Shown here: piece after piece, positions 104-37,389 of the stretch
How the letters are laid out: each line of letters begins with the position of its first letter
How positions within the stretch are numbered: the stretch's first letter is position 1
Origin: Oscillochloris sp. ZM17-4
Lineage (GTDB): Bacteria > Chloroflexota > Chloroflexia > Chloroflexales > Chloroflexaceae
Reading direction: 5' to 3'
Length of the DNA: 44,793 nucleotides
Assembly: GCF_019599295.1 (NCBI RefSeq)
Contig: NZ_JAIEWN010000009.1
Coordinates: forward strand, 101,337-146,129
The notes under the pieces: generated by a model
Told to the model about the DNA's origin: nothing
Databases searched by the model: none
The model's input: the letters and a program-made list of their open reading frames with translations, nothing else
Position numbers and translations under genes: made by a program

Positions 104-2086
104 TTAGATCGCCAGCCGCACCGCCGGGTCGCCCAGGAGCACATAGTTGCGCGCGTCGTTGCGGGCCATCCAGAGCCGCGCGAGCCGCGCCGGGTTGGGC
201 TGTATGCCGTGGCGTATATCCTCAAGCTCCTTTGTCAGGGTGAGCGAGCGAGCGCCCTGGATGACATTGAACTGGTCGGTGGCGCTGCCCGCCGGCATGC
301 CCTTGAGCAGCCGGCCGATCACGTCCTGGAAGGGCTGGATCTGGCTGTCGGCGCCGCCCTCGACCCCGCTGAACGAGTAGGTCCAGGCCCGCTCGATGTG
401 GCCGAGCACCGCCAGCGCCCCGTGCGCCAGCAGACGCTGCGGCAGCTGGGACACAAAGGAGAAGGGGGCGATCTGTGCGCGTGGCTTGCCCGGCTCAAAG
501 GCAAACTCGTCATGCTGGGGGCAGCCGGCGCTGTAGCAGGCGAAGAGGCAGGCGATCATGCCCGCCACATTCAGGTTGCTCATGGCGTCCAGATCCTCGC
601 CGGCCAGCCAGTGCTCGCGCCTGATGCTGCCATACGCGAAATCTGCGGTTAGCAGGGCGCCCTGGTGCATCACCAGCCGGGCCGGGTCGTCGCTCGACCG
701 CAGGCCAATGCCGTGGGTGGCGCTGAAGAGGATCGCCGGCGGCGCGCTGGCGCTCAGCATCCGCGTCAGATTGTCGCGCGTGGCGTCATCGCCCAGGTAG
801 AGCCTGTGTCCGAACCCGAGCCGGGCGGGGGTCGTGTTCGGCGCGCCACTCCACGCGGCCAGCGGGGTGACCAAGTTCTTGGCGCTGCGCTCGGTCGAGG
901 TGTCGCCCTCGTGGCGTGTGCCGATGAAGGCGATCTCTTTGCGCAGGTGGCTGGCCGCGTCGGCGCGAGTCTCCCAGGCCACCACCTGCTCGGCATAGTC
1001 GCGGTAGGCGTCAAGGCGATGCCGCCCGCTCGCGTCCGTGAAGAGCAGCCGGCCCACCCCCCAGAAGACATCCAGCTCGTACTGGAAGCCCCACGGGATA
1101 AAGACATCGTCGTGGGGGTCGAGCGGGCCGGGCCGGCCGACGATCATCAGGTAGAAGGGCACCCCTTGCTTCGGGTCGACCGGGGCCTGGGAGACGCGGT
1201 GGCGCGTGAGCCAGTTGTTCACTGTCTCGCCGGTGCGCACGAGCAGCACCGGCGGCACCTCGCCCCAGTTGTCCCTGAGGCTCTTCTTGCCATCGTCGGT
1301 GTGGCGGCGGAGCCATGCGCCGCAGGAGCTGTCGCCGCTCTGGAAATCGAGGTTGAGCGGGCGGCAGCCCATCTGGCGCATGCGGTGCTGGATGAGCGGC
1401 GCGAGCGCTTTCAGCACCGCCACGTCCTCCTTCGCCCGCACCACCACCGCCCAGCGCGCCTCTGCGATAGTGTCCTGATCGACATCGGCGATTGTGCCAT
1501 AGGTGTGGATGCCGCCAATGAGTCCCCTGGCGATCGTAACCGCCTCTGGCATGGGCTCTCCGCTCGGCGCAAACTCCTCGCTGCGGCAGAAGGCAGCGAC
1601 CTTTGCCTTGTAGATGCTCTCTACGGCCGTGTCTGGCGGCTTGAACTGCCTGTTCTGGGCCATCGCCACAATGTCGCCAGCGGTGATATGGAGCAGGGGT
1701 TGTCCGGTGTGCGCGTCGATCCCGTTGGGGTAGAGCTCCTCGCCGCCCGCGCTCTGCACCAGATTGCGCTGAGGGGATGCCCCGGCCGGAGCCTGCTGGC
1801 GCGGATTGAGGTGCTGATCGAGAAGCTGGGTCAGCGTATCGTACTCGTTGTGAATATTGACAGGGGTGCTGGTCTGTCTGCCAGTGGAAGTCGTCTGCGC
1901 TATGAACTTGGGGAAATCCCGCCGATGGAACAGCTCGGCCAGCCGCTCGATCAGCGCCTGAATCTTCCGCAGCCTATCGCGCTCCTCCTCCTCCTGATGG
2001 CACCCTAGCTGCTCGACGTGCTGCCCCATGAGCTCAGTGGCCCGCTGAAGCGCCTCGTAGATCGTGTCGTAGGGGTCGGTTGCCAT
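104..2086 (-). CDS. C25-like (caspase/gingipain-fold) cysteine peptidase, paralogue 1
   Basis: A 660-residue protein with a probable catalytic His-Cys dyad. The histidine lies in FSATHGIG (about His458) and the cysteine in LFACYSAGCP (about Cys517), the spacing expected of clan CD peptidases. The C-terminus NDARNYVLLGDPAVRL matches the LLGDPA ending typical of gingipain (C25) relatives. The N-terminal 70 residues are charged and helical, probably a coiled coil, followed by a family-specific region starting near EELYPNGID. There is no signal peptide or membrane segment, so a cytoplasmic location is inferred. I chose ATG 2086, which follows AGGAAG at good spacing; an ATG at 2107 would overlap the upstream stop codon. 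It is last of three same-strand paralogues, probably one operon. Substrate and role are unknown. Confidence 0.75.
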   Translation of the reverse strand: MATDPYDTIYEALQRATELMGQHVEQLGCHQEEEERDRLRKIQALIERLAELFHRRDFPKFIAQTTSTGRQTSTPVNIHNEYDTLTQLLDQHLNPRQQAPAGASPQRNLVQSAGGEELYPNGIDAHTGQPLLHITAGDIVAMAQNRQFKPPDTAVESIYKAKVAAFCRSEEFAPSGEPMPEAVTIARGLIGGIHTYGTIADVDQDTIAEARWAVVVRAKEDVAVLKALAPLIQHRMRQMGCRPLNLDFQSGDSSCGAWLRRHTDDGKKSLRDNWGEVPPVLLVRTGETVNNWLTRHRVSQAPVDPKQGVPFYLMIVGRPGPLDPHDDVFIPWGFQYELDVFWGVGRLLFTDASGRHRLDAYRDYAEQVVAWETRADAASHLRKEIAFIGTRHEGDTSTERSAKNLVTPLAAWSGAPNTTPARLGFGHRLYLGDDATRDNLTRMLSASAPPAILFSATHGIGLRSSDDPARLVMHQGALLTADFAYGSIRREHWLAGEDLDAMSNLNVAGMIACLFACYSAGCPQHDEFAFEPGKPRAQIAPFSFVSQLPQRLLAHGALAVLGHIERAWTYSFSGVEGGADSQIQPFQDVIGRLLKGMPAGSATDQFNVIQGARSLTLTKELEDIRHGIQPNPARLARLWMARNDARNYVLLGDPAVRLAI

Positions 2087-2106: not shown

Positions 2107-4002
2107 TCAGATCGCCAGCCGCACCGCCGGGTCGCCAAGGAGCAGATAGTTGCGCGCGTCGTTGCGGGCCATCCAGAGCCGCGCCAGCTGCGGCTTGGGC
2201 TTCGCATCGTACAGGAGGTACTCCAGCTCCTCGGTGAGGGTGAGCGAGCGGGCGCCCTGGATGACATTGAACTGGTCGGTGGCGCTGCCCGCCGGGATGC
2301 CGCGCATGAGCCGGCCGAGCACGTCCTGGAAGGGCTGGATCTGGCTGGTCGTCCCGGCTTCGGTGCCGCTGAACGAGTAGGTCCAGGCCCGCTCGACGTG
2401 GCCGAGCACCGCCAGCGCCCCGTTGACCAGCATGCGCTGCGGCAGCTGGGAGATGAAGGGGAAGGGCGCGATCTGCCGGCGCTGTTTGTTGGCGTCGAAG
2501 ATGAACTCATCCTGCTGGGGGCAGCCGATGCCGTAGCAGGCGAAGAGAACGGCGATCATGCCCTCCACGTTCAGGTCGCTCATGGCGCCCAGGTCCGCGC
2601 CGGACAGCCAGTGCTCGGGCCTGATGCTGCCGTACGCGAAGTCAGCGGTCAGCAGCGCGCCCTGGTTCATCACCAGGCGGCTGGGGTCGCTCATGGGCAG
2701 GCCGATGCCGTGAGTGGCGCTGAAGAGCAGGGCCGGCGGCGCGCTGGCGCTCAGCAATCGGGCCAGGTTGTCTTTGGTCGCGTCTGTGCCGAGCGAGACG
2801 GTGTGTTCAAATTGCCGCTCGACGGGGATCTTGCCGCCCTGGCTCCACGCAAGCAGCGGCTTGACCAGCTCCTCGGTGCTGCGCTCGGTCGAGATATCGC
2901 CCTCGTGGCGGGTGCCGAAGAAGGCGAGCTCTTTGCGTAGGCGGCTGGCGGCGTCGGGGCGCTGCTCCCAGGCCACCACCCGCTCGGCGTAGGCCCGGTA
3001 GTCGTCGATCCGGTGCCGGCCGCCCTCGTCGGTGAAGGCCAGCCGGCCCACCCCCCAGAACATGTCCAGCTCATACTGAAAGTTCAGCGGGATGAATGTC
3101 TGGTCGCTGAGGTCGAGCGGGCCGGGGCGGCCGACGATCATCAGGTAGAAGGGCACGCCCTGCGCGGGGTCCACCGGCGCCTGGGATGTGCCGTGGCGCT
3201 TCAGCCAGGCGTTCACCCGCTCGCCGGACTCCACCAGCAGCACGGGCGGCACTGTGATCTCGTCCCACCGGGGCGTCTGCCCGGGCTGCCAGTGGATCGC
3301 GTCTTTGAATGTCCGCGCGCCGCCATCGGTGTGGCGGCTGAGCCAGGCCCCGCAGGACGTGTCGCCGCTCTGGAAGTCAAAGTCGCGCTTGCCGAAGCCC
3401 ATCTGGATCATCCGGTGCTCGATCAGCGGCCAGAGCGCCTTGAGCACCGCCACATCCTCCTGGGCGTGGATCACCACCGCCCAGCCGGCCTCCTGGATCT
3501 TATTCTGATCGATGTCGGCGATGGTGCCGAGATGCTCGGTGACCAGCGACTTCTTGGCCTCGACCGCGACGTCGAGCGGCGGGTCTGTGCTGCTGCCCGG
3601 GTCGTAGCTGGCTATCTTCTTGCGATGAAGCTGTTTGATCTCCGGGTCGATCTGATACGCCTCATCTCTGGTCATCGCCACCACCGCCGCCGCGTTGATG
3701 CGCAGCAGCGGCATGCCGATAACGCCGTCGATCCCGTTCGGGTAGAGCTCCTCGGACTGCTCGCCGCCCCCGGCGTCGAGCAGGATCAGCGGCGCGCGGT
3801 ACTCGTTCTCCGCCGGTGCGGCTTCCGTAGTCGCCGGCGTATCGCCCGCCGGGGGCGTGGGCGCGAGGGTGGCGGTCGGCGCATCGCCGAGGGCCGCCGC
3901 AAAGCTTTGCTCGAGCTGACCAAGGCGCCTCCCGAGATCACCGTAGTCTTGCCTGATAGCGCGCAGCTGGTCATAGAGCGCGCGGGTCTGCTCATCCGCC
4001 AT
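2107..4002 (-). CDS. C25-like (caspase/gingipain-fold) cysteine peptidase, paralogue 2
   Basis: A 631-residue paralogue of the 104-2086 protein, collinear from the EELYPNGID region to the LLGDPAVRLAI end. The probable dyad is His431 (FSATHGIG) and Cys489 (LFACYGIGCP). The N-terminal 35 residues look like a coiled coil and are followed by an Ala/Pro/Thr-rich linker to about residue 65. The start at 4002 is preceded by GGAAAG with seven-base spacing. The stop codon TGA at 2107-2109 lies 20 bases before the chosen start of paralogue 1, so the two are tightly linked. A 23-residue insertion near DAIHWQPGQT distinguishes it from the other two copies. Function is inferred from the fold only. Confidence 0.75.
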   Translation of the reverse strand: MADEQTRALYDQLRAIRQDYGDLGRRLGQLEQSFAAALGDAPTATLAPTPPAGDTPATTEAAPAENEYRAPLILLDAGGGEQSEELYPNGIDGVIGMPLLRINAAAVVAMTRDEAYQIDPEIKQLHRKKIASYDPGSSTDPPLDVAVEAKKSLVTEHLGTIADIDQNKIQEAGWAVVIHAQEDVAVLKALWPLIEHRMIQMGFGKRDFDFQSGDTSCGAWLSRHTDGGARTFKDAIHWQPGQTPRWDEITVPPVLLVESGERVNAWLKRHGTSQAPVDPAQGVPFYLMIVGRPGPLDLSDQTFIPLNFQYELDMFWGVGRLAFTDEGGRHRIDDYRAYAERVVAWEQRPDAASRLRKELAFFGTRHEGDISTERSTEELVKPLLAWSQGGKIPVERQFEHTVSLGTDATKDNLARLLSASAPPALLFSATHGIGLPMSDPSRLVMNQGALLTADFAYGSIRPEHWLSGADLGAMSDLNVEGMIAVLFACYGIGCPQQDEFIFDANKQRRQIAPFPFISQLPQRMLVNGALAVLGHVERAWTYSFSGTEAGTTSQIQPFQDVLGRLMRGIPAGSATDQFNVIQGARSLTLTEELEYLLYDAKPKPQLARLWMARNDARNYLLLGDPAVRLAI

Positions 4003-4125: not shown

Positions 4126-7056
4126 TCAAATAGCCAACTTCACCGCCGGGTCGCCCAGGAGGGCGTAGTTGCGCGCGTCATTGCGGGCCATCCACAGCCG
4201 AGCCAGCAGCGATGGGTTGGGAATACTGCCACCGATCCCCTGCTCAAGCTCCTGAGTCAGGGTGAGCGAACGGGAGCCCTGGATGACATTAAACTGGTCG
4301 GTGGCGCTGCCGACCGGCATGCCTTGCATCAGCCGACTGACTACATCCTGGAATGGCTGGATCTGCGCCTTTACATTCTCGGTGCCGCTAAACGAGTAGG
4401 TCCAGGCCCGCTCGACATGGCCGAGCACTGCCAGTGCGCCCTTCAGCAGCATGCGCTGCGGCAGCTGAGCGATAAACGGGAAGGGCGCGATCTGCTGGCG
4501 CTTTTTGTTGGCATCGAAGATAAACTCGTCCTTGTCGGGGCATCCGGCACCGTAGCAGGCGAAGAGGAGGGCGATCATGCCGTCCAGGTTGGCGCTGCTC
4601 ATGGCGTCCAGATCCTCGCCGGCCATCCAGTGCTCGCGCTTGATGTTGCCGAACTCGAAGTCTGCGGTCACCAGCGATCCCTGGTTCATCACCAGACGAG
4701 CTGGATCGCTCATTGGTAGGCCGACGCCGTGGGAGGCGGTGAACAGCAGGGCCGGCGGGGTACTGGCGGTCAGCAGCGCCTCCAGATTATTCTTGGTGGC
4801 ATCGTCGCCCAGGTAGATGGTCGGATCCTGGTTGAAGCCGACGCGCTTGACGAACTTGCTTTCCTTGTTCCACTTGACCAGCGGCGCAACCAGCTCATCG
4901 GCGCTGCGCTGGGTGGAGTTATCATCCTCGTGGCGCGTGCCGAAGAAGGCGATCTCCTTGCGCAGGCGATTCGCCGCGTCGGCGCGGGTCTCCCATGCCA
5001 CCACCCGCTCGGCGTAGGTCTTGTAGTCATCGAGGCGGTGGTGGCCGCTCACATCGCTGAAGACCAGCCGTCCCACGCCCCAGAAGAAGTCGAGCTCATA
5101 CTGGAAGTGGAGCGAGATATAGATCTTATCATGAGAGTCGAGGGGGCCGGGGCGACCGACGAGCATCAGGTAATAGGGCACGCCGAGGGCAGGGTCGACA
5201 GGCCCCTGCGAGGTGCCGTGGCGCTTCAGCCAGGCGTTTACAGGTTCGTCGGGGCGCACGAGCAGCACCGGCGGCACCTTCCCCCAGGCGTTGGCCAGAG
5301 TCTTCTTGCCGCCATCGGTGTGGCGGCTCATCCATGCACCGCAGGTGGTGTCGCCGCTCTGGAAGTCGAAGTCGAGCTTGCTGAACTCCATCTGGCGCAT
5401 ACGGTGCTGGACGAGGGGCCAGAGCGCCTTGAGCACCGCGACATCCTCCTCGGCATGCACCACCACTGCCCAGCCGGCCTGCTGGATCTGGTTCTGATCG
5501 ACCTCGCCCGTCGTGGCGAAGGAGCCATGTTCCTTTTCTTTGGCAAGGTTTTGCTCATCCTCCCACGAGCGCTCGCCCTTGGCGAACTTCGCCGCCGTAT
5601 CGGTGTCGATCTTGAGCAGCAGCTGTCCAGTGACGCCGTCGACGCCATTGGCATCTAGCTCCTCGTTATCCTCACTCACTCCTTTGTTTAGGAAGACGAG
5701 CGGCCCCGTATAGGGGATGGTCTCCTCCGCAGGGGCGACGGCTGCCGGTTCCGGCGTAGCTGTGGGGGCGGGCCGGGGCAGCTGAGCAGGTGCAGGTGCC
5801 TCTATTGGCGCGGGGGCAGCCTCGTCCTCGTCCTCGTGCGAAGGCATCGGCACACCCAGGATGCGCTGGAGCCGCGTGGTCAGATCATCGACCTGATCCT
5901 TGAGCCCCAGCAGGTCGGCGTAGATCGCCATCAGGTTATCGCTGCCCTCGCCCGAACTGCCGAGGCGGGCCGATCCGGATTTGCCACGCGAGCCGACCTT
6001 CTTCGGCGGCGCGGCCACCTTCTCCTCGAGGACAATACCGTCGGCCACAAAGGCCACAAGGTTCTGGCGGGACACCAGCAGGAAGGGCATGTGGCAGTAG
6101 CCGGGGCCGTCGCTATTGTCCTTGCCCCAGTCGGGGCCCCAGCTGTTTCGCACAATAAAGTAGCCGCCGCCGGGGGCCGTCGCATCGGTGCGGTAGCCCA
6201 CGACACACATGGCATGGCCGCCCTTTGCTTGTTCGCTGGGCAGCGGGAAGCGCAGCCGGCCCAAGATCGTCGCCTGGGTCGCGCCCGTCCAATGCGAGTA
6301 GATCGGCATACCGATCATCACCGGCTTACCCTCAGCCAGCTGGGCCTGGATCTGGTTCACCCCTGTGCTGCCCTTGGGCTGTAGCTGGGTGAAGCCGCTG
6401 ATCCGGCGGCGTTTCGCCTCATCGTAGGCGGGCGCGGGCGGCGTCGGGCCACCGGGCTGGCTGGTATTAGGCTCAGCGTGGTAGGGCCAGGTTCGCTCGG
6501 TGCAGATTCCCACGTCGCGCAGCAGCTGGATGGCCAGGGCCGGATTCGTACCCACATCGCCGGGGATGCCGTCTCGCTCCTTGCAGAGGTAGTAGAGGAA
6601 CTGCTCCGAGAGGTCGGTCGGGTCGCCGCTGAGGATCTGCAGCATTGAGGCCAGGGTGAAGGCCACGCAGGTGTTGCGCTGGCCTTGGTTCTGCGGGTCG
6701 GGGATGCCCCTGGCCTTGGTCAGCGGCTCAACAGCCTCGGGCAGATCGACCACGGTGGCGAAGGACGCCTCAACCTCAGGCACGCCGGTCATATCCAGGC
6801 CCGCGCCGACCTCAAACTCAACCGCGATGTCGAAAGGCGTATCTTGGGGGAGGGCTGCGTTGACGGCGTCGGCGAGGCTCCCCAGCGTGGCATCATCGAC
6901 GCCCAGGACTGCCGCCAGCGTTTTCCGCCCGCTGAAGTTGATCGTGCTGCGGAACTCCTCGGCCGTCGTGATCCAGTATGGGTCTGCCAGCTTCTTACGG
7001 ATCGTCTCGTCAAACCCGGCGATCCCGTCGAGCGGCGTGAGCGTGCGTTCAGGCAT
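4126..7056 (-). CDS. Fusion of papain-like (C1A) and C25-like cysteine peptidases
   Basis: A 976-residue protein with two separate cysteine-peptidase modules. Residues 1-110 form a helical N-terminal region that may resemble helix-hairpin-helix domains. Residues about 112-340 look like papain: oxyanion Gln124 and nucleophile Cys130 in NQGQRNTC, His281 in GGHAMCVVGY, and Asn304 in VRNSWGPDWG. A coiled-coil segment (about 372-400) and an Ala/Pro-rich linker (about 410-448) follow. Residues about 460-976 are the C25-like module, with His776 in TASHGVG and Cys834 in LFACYGAGCP, ending ALLGDPAVKL. ATG 7056 has a strong AAGGAG five bases upstream; the frame extends further upstream only through heptamer repeats. 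No secretion signal is visible. It is first in a three-gene same-strand cluster and could process or activate the two downstream paralogues, which is inference. Confidence 0.8.
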   Translation of the reverse strand: MPERTLTPLDGIAGFDETIRKKLADPYWITTAEEFRSTINFSGRKTLAAVLGVDDATLGSLADAVNAALPQDTPFDIAVEFEVGAGLDMTGVPEVEASFATVVDLPEAVEPLTKARGIPDPQNQGQRNTCVAFTLASMLQILSGDPTDLSEQFLYYLCKERDGIPGDVGTNPALAIQLLRDVGICTERTWPYHAEPNTSQPGGPTPPAPAYDEAKRRRISGFTQLQPKGSTGVNQIQAQLAEGKPVMIGMPIYSHWTGATQATILGRLRFPLPSEQAKGGHAMCVVGYRTDATAPGGGYFIVRNSWGPDWGKDNSDGPGYCHMPFLLVSRQNLVAFVADGIVLEEKVAAPPKKVGSRGKSGSARLGSSGEGSDNLMAIYADLLGLKDQVDDLTTRLQRILGVPMPSHEDEDEAAPAPIEAPAPAQLPRPAPTATPEPAAVAPAEETIPYTGPLVFLNKGVSEDNEELDANGVDGVTGQLLLKIDTDTAAKFAKGERSWEDEQNLAKEKEHGSFATTGEVDQNQIQQAGWAVVVHAEEDVAVLKALWPLVQHRMRQMEFSKLDFDFQSGDTTCGAWMSRHTDGGKKTLANAWGKVPPVLLVRPDEPVNAWLKRHGTSQGPVDPALGVPYYLMLVGRPGPLDSHDKIYISLHFQYELDFFWGVGRLVFSDVSGHHRLDDYKTYAERVVAWETRADAANRLRKEIAFFGTRHEDDNSTQRSADELVAPLVKWNKESKFVKRVGFNQDPTIYLGDDATKNNLEALLTASTPPALLFTASHGVGLPMSDPARLVMNQGSLVTADFEFGNIKREHWMAGEDLDAMSSANLDGMIALLFACYGAGCPDKDEFIFDANKKRQQIAPFPFIAQLPQRMLLKGALAVLGHVERAWTYSFSGTENVKAQIQPFQDVVSRLMQGMPVGSATDQFNVIQGSRSLTLTQELEQGIGGSIPNPSLLARLWMARNDARNYALLGDPAVKLAI

Positions 7057-7070
7057 TCCAGCTCCTTCAA

Positions 7071-7156
7071 AGATTGCAGATTGCAGATTGCAGATTGCAG
7101 ATTGCAGCATCAGTGTACGATACTCATTTGCGATCAACAATCCGCAATCTGCAATC
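7071..7156. repeat. Heptamer array 2, inverted arms (ATTGCAG)
   Basis: The left arm (7071-7107) has about five AGATTGC units. The short right arm (7141-7156) carries the complementary CTGCAAT-type units. It lies directly upstream of the Shine-Dalgarno sequence of the C1A-C25 gene and so would form its 5' untranslated region. Confidence 0.85.
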
Positions 7157-7214
7157 ACATGCGACTGAGGATGCTCTAAGGTACGATAATCTGTAATTAC
7201 ATGCGGCTGAGGAT
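7155..7214. repeat. Short direct repeat copying the 3' end of punA
   Basis: ACATGCGACTGAGGAT (7157-7172) matches ACATGCGGCTGAGGAT (7199-7214) at 15 of 16 bases. The second copy is the genuine end of punA. On the minus strand both copies read ILSRM followed by a stop codon. The extra copy lies between punA and heptamer array 2. Confidence 0.7.
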
Positions 7215-8015
7215 ACCACGGATGAGCGCGGAGAAGCGGGGCTTGGCCTGCTCGCCGGCCTCCAGCACCTCGGCGTGGTTGGCCGGGGGGCCGTCGGGCA
7301 TGGCCAGGTTGGTGATCAGCGAGAAGCCGAGGACGCGCATGCCGCCGTGGATGGCGACGATCACCTCGGGGGCGGTGGACATGCCCACGGCGTCGGCGCC
7401 CCAGATCCGCAGCATACGGATCTCGGCGGCGCTCTCGAAGGCCGGCCCCGAGAGCATGCAGTAGACGCCCTCGCGCAGCGTCGTGCCCTGCGCTGCGGCC
7501 ACCTCGCGGGCCAGGGGCACCAGCTCGTTGTCGAAGGCGCCGACGACGCCGGGGAATCGCGGGCCGAGCCGGTCGTCGTTCTCGCCGCGCAGCGGGTGGT
7601 TGCCGACCATGCCGGGCAGGAAGATCTGGTCGCTGATCCGCATAATATCGCCCACCTGCCAGTCGGGGCGCAGACCGCCGGCGGCGTTGGTGACGATCAG
7701 TGTCTCGCAGCCGAGCGCCTTGAGCACGCGCACCGGGAAGGCCACCTCCTGCATCGAGTGGCCCTCGTAGAAGTGGAATCGACCGCGCATCGCGGCCACC
7801 GGCTTGCCCTCCATCAGCCCGATCGCCAGCTCGCCGCGGTGTCCATGCACCTTCGGCGCGTGGAAGCCGGGGATCTCGGCGTAGGGCACGACGGCGGCCT
7901 GCTCCAGGTCATCGGCCAGGCCGCCCAGGCCCGAGCCGAGGATCAGGCCGACCTTCGGCGTCACCAGCAGGCGCCCGGCGATGGCGGCGCGCGCCTGCTC
8001 GATTAGTTCGTACAT
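7197..8015 (-). CDS. punA: Purine nucleoside phosphorylase
   Basis: A 272-residue trimeric-type purine nucleoside phosphorylase. It cleaves inosine and guanosine-type nucleosides with phosphate to give base and ribose-1-phosphate (cytoplasmic purine salvage). Family signatures are GSGLGG near residue 27 (phosphate binding), GRFHFYEGHS, TNAAGGL, GPAFESAAE, GMSTAPEV and the base-binding ITNLA near residue 240. Length and motif order are complete. ATG 8015 is preceded by GAGG at short spacing. A long heptamer array lies immediately upstream. The gene is separate from the neighbouring PH/SHOCT gene by 218 bp and is probably transcribed alone or by read-through from it. Confidence 0.95.
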   Translation of the reverse strand: MYELIEQARAAIAGRLLVTPKVGLILGSGLGGLADDLEQAAVVPYAEIPGFHAPKVHGHRGELAIGLMEGKPVAAMRGRFHFYEGHSMQEVAFPVRVLKALGCETLIVTNAAGGLRPDWQVGDIMRISDQIFLPGMVGNHPLRGENDDRLGPRFPGVVGAFDNELVPLAREVAAAQGTTLREGVYCMLSGPAFESAAEIRMLRIWGADAVGMSTAPEVIVAIHGGMRVLGFSLITNLAMPDGPPANHAEVLEAGEQAKPRFSALIRGILSRM

Positions 8016-12268: not shown

Positions 12269-12319
12269 CTGGAACCTCCTCATTGTTTTAGGGACGCGAA
12301 TCTTCTTACGCATCTGATC

Positions 12320-12395
12320 GTGACGGGTGATCCGTGATCCGTGATCCGTGACCAAGCCACGGATCACGGATCACCCGTCACGGATCACGGATCAT
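12320..12395. repeat. Heptamer array 4, inverted arms (GATCCGT)
   Basis: The left arm is 12320-12350 and the right arm 12358-12395, each made of GATCCGT/ACGGATC units with one divergent CGGGTGA unit mirrored in both arms. The loop is about 7 bases. It occupies the gap between the kinase stop and the regulator start. Confidence 0.9.
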
Positions 12396-12435
12396 GCAAC
12401 TGCCTGGATGATCGCGCATTTCTGCTTCCCTTACC

Positions 12436-15372: not shown

Positions 15373-15446
15373 GAGTTGAGTGTTGAGTGTTGAGTGTTGA
15401 GTGTTGAGCTTTTGAACTCAACACTCAACACTCAGCACTCAGCACT
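15373..15446. repeat. Heptamer array 5, inverted arms (GTTGAGT)
   Basis: The left arm 15373-15408 (GTTGAGT units) and right arm 15415-15446 (ACTCAAC/ACTCAGC units) have a 6-base loop. The array fills the whole gap between the HD-protein stop codon (15445-15447) and the scpA start. Confidence 0.95.
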
Positions 15447-24044: not shown

Positions 24045-25609
<1,565 letters not shown>

Positions 25610-25610
<1 letters not shown>

Positions 25611-25683
25611 TTGCAGATTGCAGATTGCAGATTGCAGATTGGATTACAAAGTAATCTGCAATCTGCAATCTACAATCTGCAAT
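25610..25683. repeat. Heptamer array 9, inverted arms (ATTGCAG) between atpA and atpG
   Basis: The left arm 25610-25647 and right arm 25651-25683 fold around an AAA loop. The left arm has four to five ATTGCAG units; the right arm has the complements with one substitution. It starts at the atpA stop codon and ends just before the atpG ribosome site. Confidence 0.95.
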
Positions 25684-28026: not shown

Positions 28027-28027
<1 letters not shown>

Positions 28028-28094
28028 TTGCAGATTGCAGATTGCAGATTGCAGATTTTCACAATCTGCAATCTGCAATCTGCAATCTGCAATC
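28027..28094. repeat. Heptamer array 10, inverted arms (ATTGCAG) between atpD and atpC
   Basis: The left arm 28027-28056 and right arm 28062-28094 have four exact units each and a five-base loop. It starts at the atpD stop codon and ends at the atpC ribosome site, filling the whole gap. Confidence 0.95.
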
Positions 28095-36771: not shown

Positions 36772-36844
36772 ATTGAATGTTGAATGTTGAATGTTGAATG
36801 TTGAATGCCGCACATTCAGCATTCAACATTCAACATTCAACATT
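36772..36844. repeat. Heptamer array 13, inverted arms (GTTGAAT)
   Basis: The left arm 36772-36808 has five units, the right arm 36813-36844 more than four, with a short loop. It fills the gap between the SDR stop codon and the methyltransferase start. Confidence 0.95.
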
Positions 36845-37278: not shown

Positions 37279-37333
37279 TCTTCTGAAACCTTGTCATACG
37301 CCGAAACCTTAACTTGTGACCAATGGTGTAAGG

Positions 37334-37389
37334 AGTGTTGAGTGTTGAGTGTTGAGTGTTGGAGCCAACACTCAACACTCAACACTCAA
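37334..37389. repeat. Heptamer array 14, inverted arms (GTTGAGT)
   Basis: The left arm 37334-37361 and right arm 37365-37389 have three to four exact units each and a very short loop. It lies between the truncated SDR and the tRNA-like element. Confidence 0.95.

Follow-up and report, generated by a model that had tools for sequence, protein, structure and literature searches.

Papain-like and C25-like cysteine peptidase modules in one predicted protein of Oscillochloris and its family

The tandem cluster and its setting

The window, by which we mean the whole 44,793-nucleotide stretch of Oscillochloris sp. ZM17-4 DNA analysed here, carries a tandem cluster of peptidase genes on the minus strand. 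The first gene of the cluster (4126..7056) encodes a 976-residue protein in which a C1A papain is fused to a C25-like peptidase. Its open frame starts with the ATG at position 7056; the frame could be extended to a GTG at 7158, and the orthologues back the ATG. Upstream lies a gene recognised by sequence inspection as a purine nucleoside phosphorylase (7197..8015, minus strand), which serves as a syntenic anchor, since a nucleoside phosphorylase gene also precedes the fusion in seven relatives. Throughout the host's family the fusion usually occupies this one conserved locus, with housekeeping genes as neighbours; the host genome itself measures 6.7 Mb.

Downstream of the fusion, the second gene (2107..4002, minus strand) encodes a coiled coil and a C25-like module without a papain domain. 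It keeps the active-site pair and is 72% identical to fusion residues 513-976, and its start matches the coiled-coil segment of the fusion at residues 372-495 (35% identity, E = 9e-8). The third gene (104..2086, minus strand) is C25-like only, also retains the active-site pair, and is 68% identical. Immediately beyond the edge of the window there is a fourth copy (G000:C172:99246-100676), giving the host genome three downstream C25-only copies. One such copy is found at each of two other loci (L038 and L047), and none at four fusion loci (L043, L046, L048 and L049). Because the tree nests the C25-only paralogues inside the fusion clade, they are late tandem duplicates that lost the N-terminal domain and the papain domain.

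Domains of the fusion protein

From its N-terminus, the fusion protein comprises a helical domain of about 78 residues, a xylellain-type C1A papain, a fast-evolving coiled-coil linker and a two-subdomain clan CD peptidase. The AlphaFold2 model, built on a 34-sequence alignment, has a mean pLDDT of 84.5 and contains two confident modules with disordered stretches between them (pLDDT below 50 at residues 347-372 and 406-450), in agreement with the sequence-only reading that the modules are separate; with an overall pTM of 0.60, it carries no information on their relative placement. In a simple hydropathy scan, as opposed to a dedicated predictor, we saw no hydrophobic N-terminus, signal peptide or membrane segment, and the maximum (1.55 in a 19-residue window) is not N-terminal. 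As a hydrophobic N-terminus and membrane segment are lacking, the protein is likely cytoplasmic.

The papain domain spans residues 106-343 (6028..6741). Pfam Peptidase_C1 (PF00112) matches residues 106-313 with E = 4.7e-15 and 56.7 bits, against a curated cut-off of 20.7. The best sequence relative in the PDB is xylellain (3ois, E = 1.4e-18), on which modelled residues 82-343 superpose with a Z of 27.2 and an rmsd of 2.6 over 241 residues at 27% identity (3ois_B, VIA-align). The catalytic set follows in order: Gln124 of the oxyanion hole (6685..6687), the nucleophile Cys130 (6667..6669) and His281 (6214..6216), each present in 32 of the 32 fusions that cover the site, and Asn304 (6145..6147), present in 33 of 33. 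By both sequence and fold this is a C1A domain, which confirms the proposal of a papain-like N-terminal fold and removes the doubt raised over it. Xylellain shares the papain fold, the triad and the short bacterial type, but it is a standalone enzyme that lacks the C25 module and the N-terminal helical domain.

The C-terminal module, residues 509-976 (4129..5532), matches gingipains on the full model (1cvr, Z 21.8; 4ief, Z 22.1). When folded alone, from an alignment without the plasmid rows, it reaches a pTM of 0.89 and its nearest structures are gingipains R and K, with Z of 20.6-22.8 over 307-326 residues (1cvr, Z 22.8 over 307). The next folds are Craspase Csx29 (Z at most 15.3), separase (about 14) and metacaspases (about 11), and the SAVED-CHAT filament is also among those nearest after the gingipains. 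The modelled fold is therefore closest to family C25, a match that rests on the model because a sequence profile of the module found no credible relative in the PDB. Pfam Peptidase_C25 (PF01364) matches residues 872-974 of the fusion at 18.0 bits, below the cut-off of 23; its relatives exceed that cut-off (best E = 3.6e-9; 38.9 bits for a Nostoc relative), and we accordingly call the module C25-like. Assignment to CHAT instead of C25 was ruled out, as the gingipains score clearly higher in the fold comparison; the CHAT profile (PF12770) does not match the fusion and gives the third gene of the cluster 21.5 bits, with a cut-off of 24.

His776 (4729..4731) and Cys834 (4555..4557) are present in all 33 fusions and invariant in an 18-sequence alignment of C25-like proteins from three phyla, among them relatives encoded on plasmids of Nostoc, Planktothrix and Sinorhizobium, and we predict that they form the catalytic dyad of a clan CD peptidase, with Cys834 as the nucleophile. 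Gingipains R and K (1cvr, 4ief, 4rbm) have the same two-subdomain catalytic module and His/Cys pair, but their identity to the C25-like module is only about 11-15%. Gingipains are secreted Bacteroidota enzymes with a propeptide and an Ig-like domain, and they cut after Arg or Lys; the fusion differs in the papain domain in front and in the lack of a visible signal peptide. At Z of about 13-15, Csx29 (TPR-CHAT) and separase, which are also two-subdomain clan CD peptidases, score clearly below the gingipains, and they carry different regulatory parts. The modelled matches to xylellain and to gingipains together bear out the earlier claim that two unrelated cysteine-peptidase folds share one chain. 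The open-frame coordinates and the six active-site residue numbers given in that reading are likewise correct.

The N-terminal helical domain (residues 1-78; 6823..7056) is modelled with helices at residues 17-27, 32-42, 44-51 and 55-68. It has no clear Pfam or PDB relative, with weak likeness only to DUF4332/helix-hairpin-helix, and its profile retrieved only fusions, one papain protein (G184) and, weakly, a membrane protein. An I29-type propeptide was ruled out, as no such Pfam match was obtained.

Between the two peptidase modules, the linker (residues 344-456; 5689..6027) varies among fusions in both length and sequence and includes a modelled coiled-coil helix at residues 371-400 (5857..5946). 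In pairwise Nei-Gojobori counts, some with synonymous distances near saturation, dN/dS ranges over 0.04-0.25 in the papain module and 0.04-0.34 in the C25-like one, against 0.25-0.78 in the linker, which is thus under far weaker constraint than either module. Given these values and the invariant catalytic residues, which rule out degenerate active sites, both modules are under purifying selection that keeps them as enzymes or, failing that, as folds with their active sites intact. Across the 33 fusions the linker has no strictly conserved cleavage motif and no invariant basic residue. The best candidate is R395 within the coiled coil, kept in 27 of 33, which could be a cut site or, equally, a coiled-coil or structural residue.

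Distribution, history and relatives

Full-length fusions in one open frame occur in at least 28 of the 41 genomes of the host's family, which rules out an assembly artefact or the chance merging of two genes. One further genome (G405) has a fusion broken near its C-terminus. No relative could be detected in four of the 41, some of which are incomplete, and several others hold C25 pieces only, indicating that the fusion is not essential. In a survey of 400 Chloroflexota genomes that scored a capped number of candidates per genome, the fusion was found only in the host's family, and the remaining lineages gave separate papain or separate C25-like matches. It was not seen in 299 Pseudomonadota genomes, nor was it found on plasmids or in phages. 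A peptide-pattern scan of contigs returned one close fusion and one papain, the patterns being too specific to gauge distribution. Full-text searches of open-licence papers returned no description of a C1A and C25 combination, and C25 goes unmentioned in a survey of papain evolution (PMC10380794). The concern that such a fusion might be commonplace and already described is thereby answered: known folds are brought together in a new stable pairing that is common only inside one family.

The papain halves of the fusions form one clade (34 rows, SH-aLRT 89), and the C25-like halves together with the C25-only paralogues form another (45 rows, SH-aLRT 100). Since each half forms a single clade, the two were, most simply, joined once and then inherited together. 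Some family genomes hold a second, divergent fusion; the host's copy, on contig C123, is 43% identical. Genome G401 provides a natural two-gene version, in which the papain half and the C25-like half have a gene each and the two genes share an ATGA overlap (contig C547, L099:1858-1861), so that co-expression would persist when the chain is split. In G417, papain and C25 occupy different, overlapping frames, with the break at a stretch of ten A (contig C51, L098:2237-2279), which reflects either an error in the assembly or programmed slippage.

Standalone relatives of the C25-like module, which NCBI names 'C25 family cysteine peptidase', are carried on Nostoc, Planktothrix and Sinorhizobium plasmids. 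They belong to the same subfamily, being about 36% identical to fusion residues 459-976 with the same invariant His/Cys, but they lack a papain domain and differ in their neighbourhoods. In Nostoc and Sinorhizobium the peptidase gene is immediately preceded by one that encodes a conserved protein of some 440 residues, and the Planktothrix homologue of that gene is found about 8 kb upstream. The three proteins are mutually 45-58% identical, and that of Sinorhizobium is recognised as an alpha/beta-hydrolase (E = 0.0013). Nearby, the cyanobacteria also carry nSTAND1 genes annotated as CHAT, and Sinorhizobium carries a CHAT-ATPase gene. One Chloroflexota relative adjoins subtilase and patatin genes. 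On the papain side, sequence inspection of five Pseudomonadota proteins indicates a xylellain-like papain joined to a second hydrolase in one chain, as in the fusion, but the partner is an alpha/beta-hydrolase-like region and not C25. Caspase-superfamily peptidases paired with alpha/beta-hydrolases have been described in ternary conflict systems (PMC7159879). Taken with the neighbours and fusions of the standalone relatives, this pairing makes a conflict-system or cell-death ancestry plausible for the C25-like branch.

Two further arrangements of C25-like modules were observed. In G323, the module is fused to a nitrilase-type carbon-nitrogen hydrolase (L058:9649-12183), and the gene immediately upstream shows a weak astacin/matrixin-like match. 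A further C25-like protein of the host genome (L042:5920-9112, contig G000:C107), syntenic at a second locus (L044), bears a C-terminal domain that recurs, at 37% identity, as a small gene product two genes downstream.

Candidate functions and intergenic repeats

A conserved pairing that remains under selection is likely to be used together, and to this extent the idea of a functional link within the chain, put forward in the sequence-only reading, stands. The specific form proposed there, a built-in activation cascade, is not supported. Under that explanation one module would cut the chain and so free or activate the other, or would activate the downstream paralogues, the cutter most likely being the C25-like module, acting on R395 or on another linker site, or else the papain module. 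The flexible linker, the sharing of the tandem cluster with the paralogues and the frequent retention of R395, an arginine such as gingipains cut after, fit such a cascade. However, the linker is conserved in neither sequence nor length and lacks an invariant basic residue, R395 itself lies within a predicted helix, and the separate genes of G401 indicate that an obligatory linker cut is not universal. An obligate cascade from the fusion to the paralogues is likewise disfavoured, because these are absent from several fusion-bearing genomes and derive from the fusion. We therefore regard the cascade as unlikely.

Our preferred reading, to which we lend about as much belief as doubt, is an intracellular two-headed cysteine protease, in which predicted-active papain and gingipain-fold sites on a flexible coiled-coil linker act on shared or successive substrates. 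The coiled coil would assemble the fusion with itself or, where they are present, with the C25-only paralogues; co-assembly with the latter is plausible, and it is consistent with a two-headed protease that these paralogues keep the active-site pair and that the second gene of the cluster keeps the coiled coil. The two sites would act in concert, the C25-like site perhaps making a narrow cut and the papain trimming more broadly, and activity would be restrained by the N-terminal segment, by assembly or by both until a trigger arrives. Activation within the chain through linker cleavage is possible under this scheme but would be secondary. We thus favour concerted action of two tethered sites under assembly-dependent control over an obligatory self-cleavage cascade, while noting that the predicted sites might turn out to be silent or to serve regulation.

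The company kept by the relatives suggests another use, in which the fusion serves as a conflict or cell-death effector, a caspase-like peptidase of a partner-hydrolase system that cuts host or viral proteins upon infection or stress. The alpha/beta-hydrolase-like and CHAT genes beside the plasmid relatives, the subtilase, patatin and nitrilase associations in Chloroflexota, the Pseudomonadota papain fusions, the published caspase and hydrolase pairs, and the presence of Csx29 and the SAVED-CHAT filament among the next-nearest folds all argue for it. Against it, the neighbours at fusion loci are housekeeping genes, among which no sensor NTPase, CHAT or hydrolase gene was recognised, and PADLOC gave no match. 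Moreover, most defence genes differ from the fusion, which is inherited vertically and stays at a fixed locus, and we judge an effector role to be somewhat improbable. As for the VMAP/iSTAND ternary systems (PMC7159879), inspection of gene products at the fusion loci, with part of the neighbours also profile-scanned, recognised no vWA, MoxR, VMAP or STAND component. That same housekeeping locus, together with the predicted cytoplasmic location and presence in most family genomes, would suit ordinary protein turnover by a general-degradation protease whose two sites merely widen its specificity. Yet the protein has no ATPase or chaperone module, the closest relatives of both modules lie outside known turnover machines, and losses across the family are patchy, leaving turnover an improbable explanation as well. 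Most doubtful, in our estimation, is a single-chain relay, in which the gingipain-fold module, on sensing or being triggered by some event in the cell, would cut within the coiled-coil linker, perhaps at R395, and release active papain for regulated cell death or antiviral use; if true, it would give a multicellular phototroph a bacterial counterpart of paired initiator and executioner proteases within a single polypeptide.

Two unrelated cysteine-peptidase folds kept in one chain by selection across a bacterial family constitute an unusual architecture. It occurs in filamentous anoxygenic phototrophs, whose regulated proteolysis is poorly known, and it would connect the caspase-like peptidases of bacterial conflict systems with a gingipain-family branch that is cytoplasmic and not secreted.

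Separately from the peptidases, the window contains intergenic arrays of 7-base tandem repeats, with different heptamers at each site, at 7071-7156, 12316-12413, 15375-15446 and 25603-25683, and further heptamer arrays at 28027-28094, 36773-36844 and 37333-37389. One array lies just upstream of the fusion gene start. Many are arranged as inverted pairs with 2-25 bases between them, which would fold into long hairpins, and the arrays resemble the heptamer STRR repeats of cyanobacteria.
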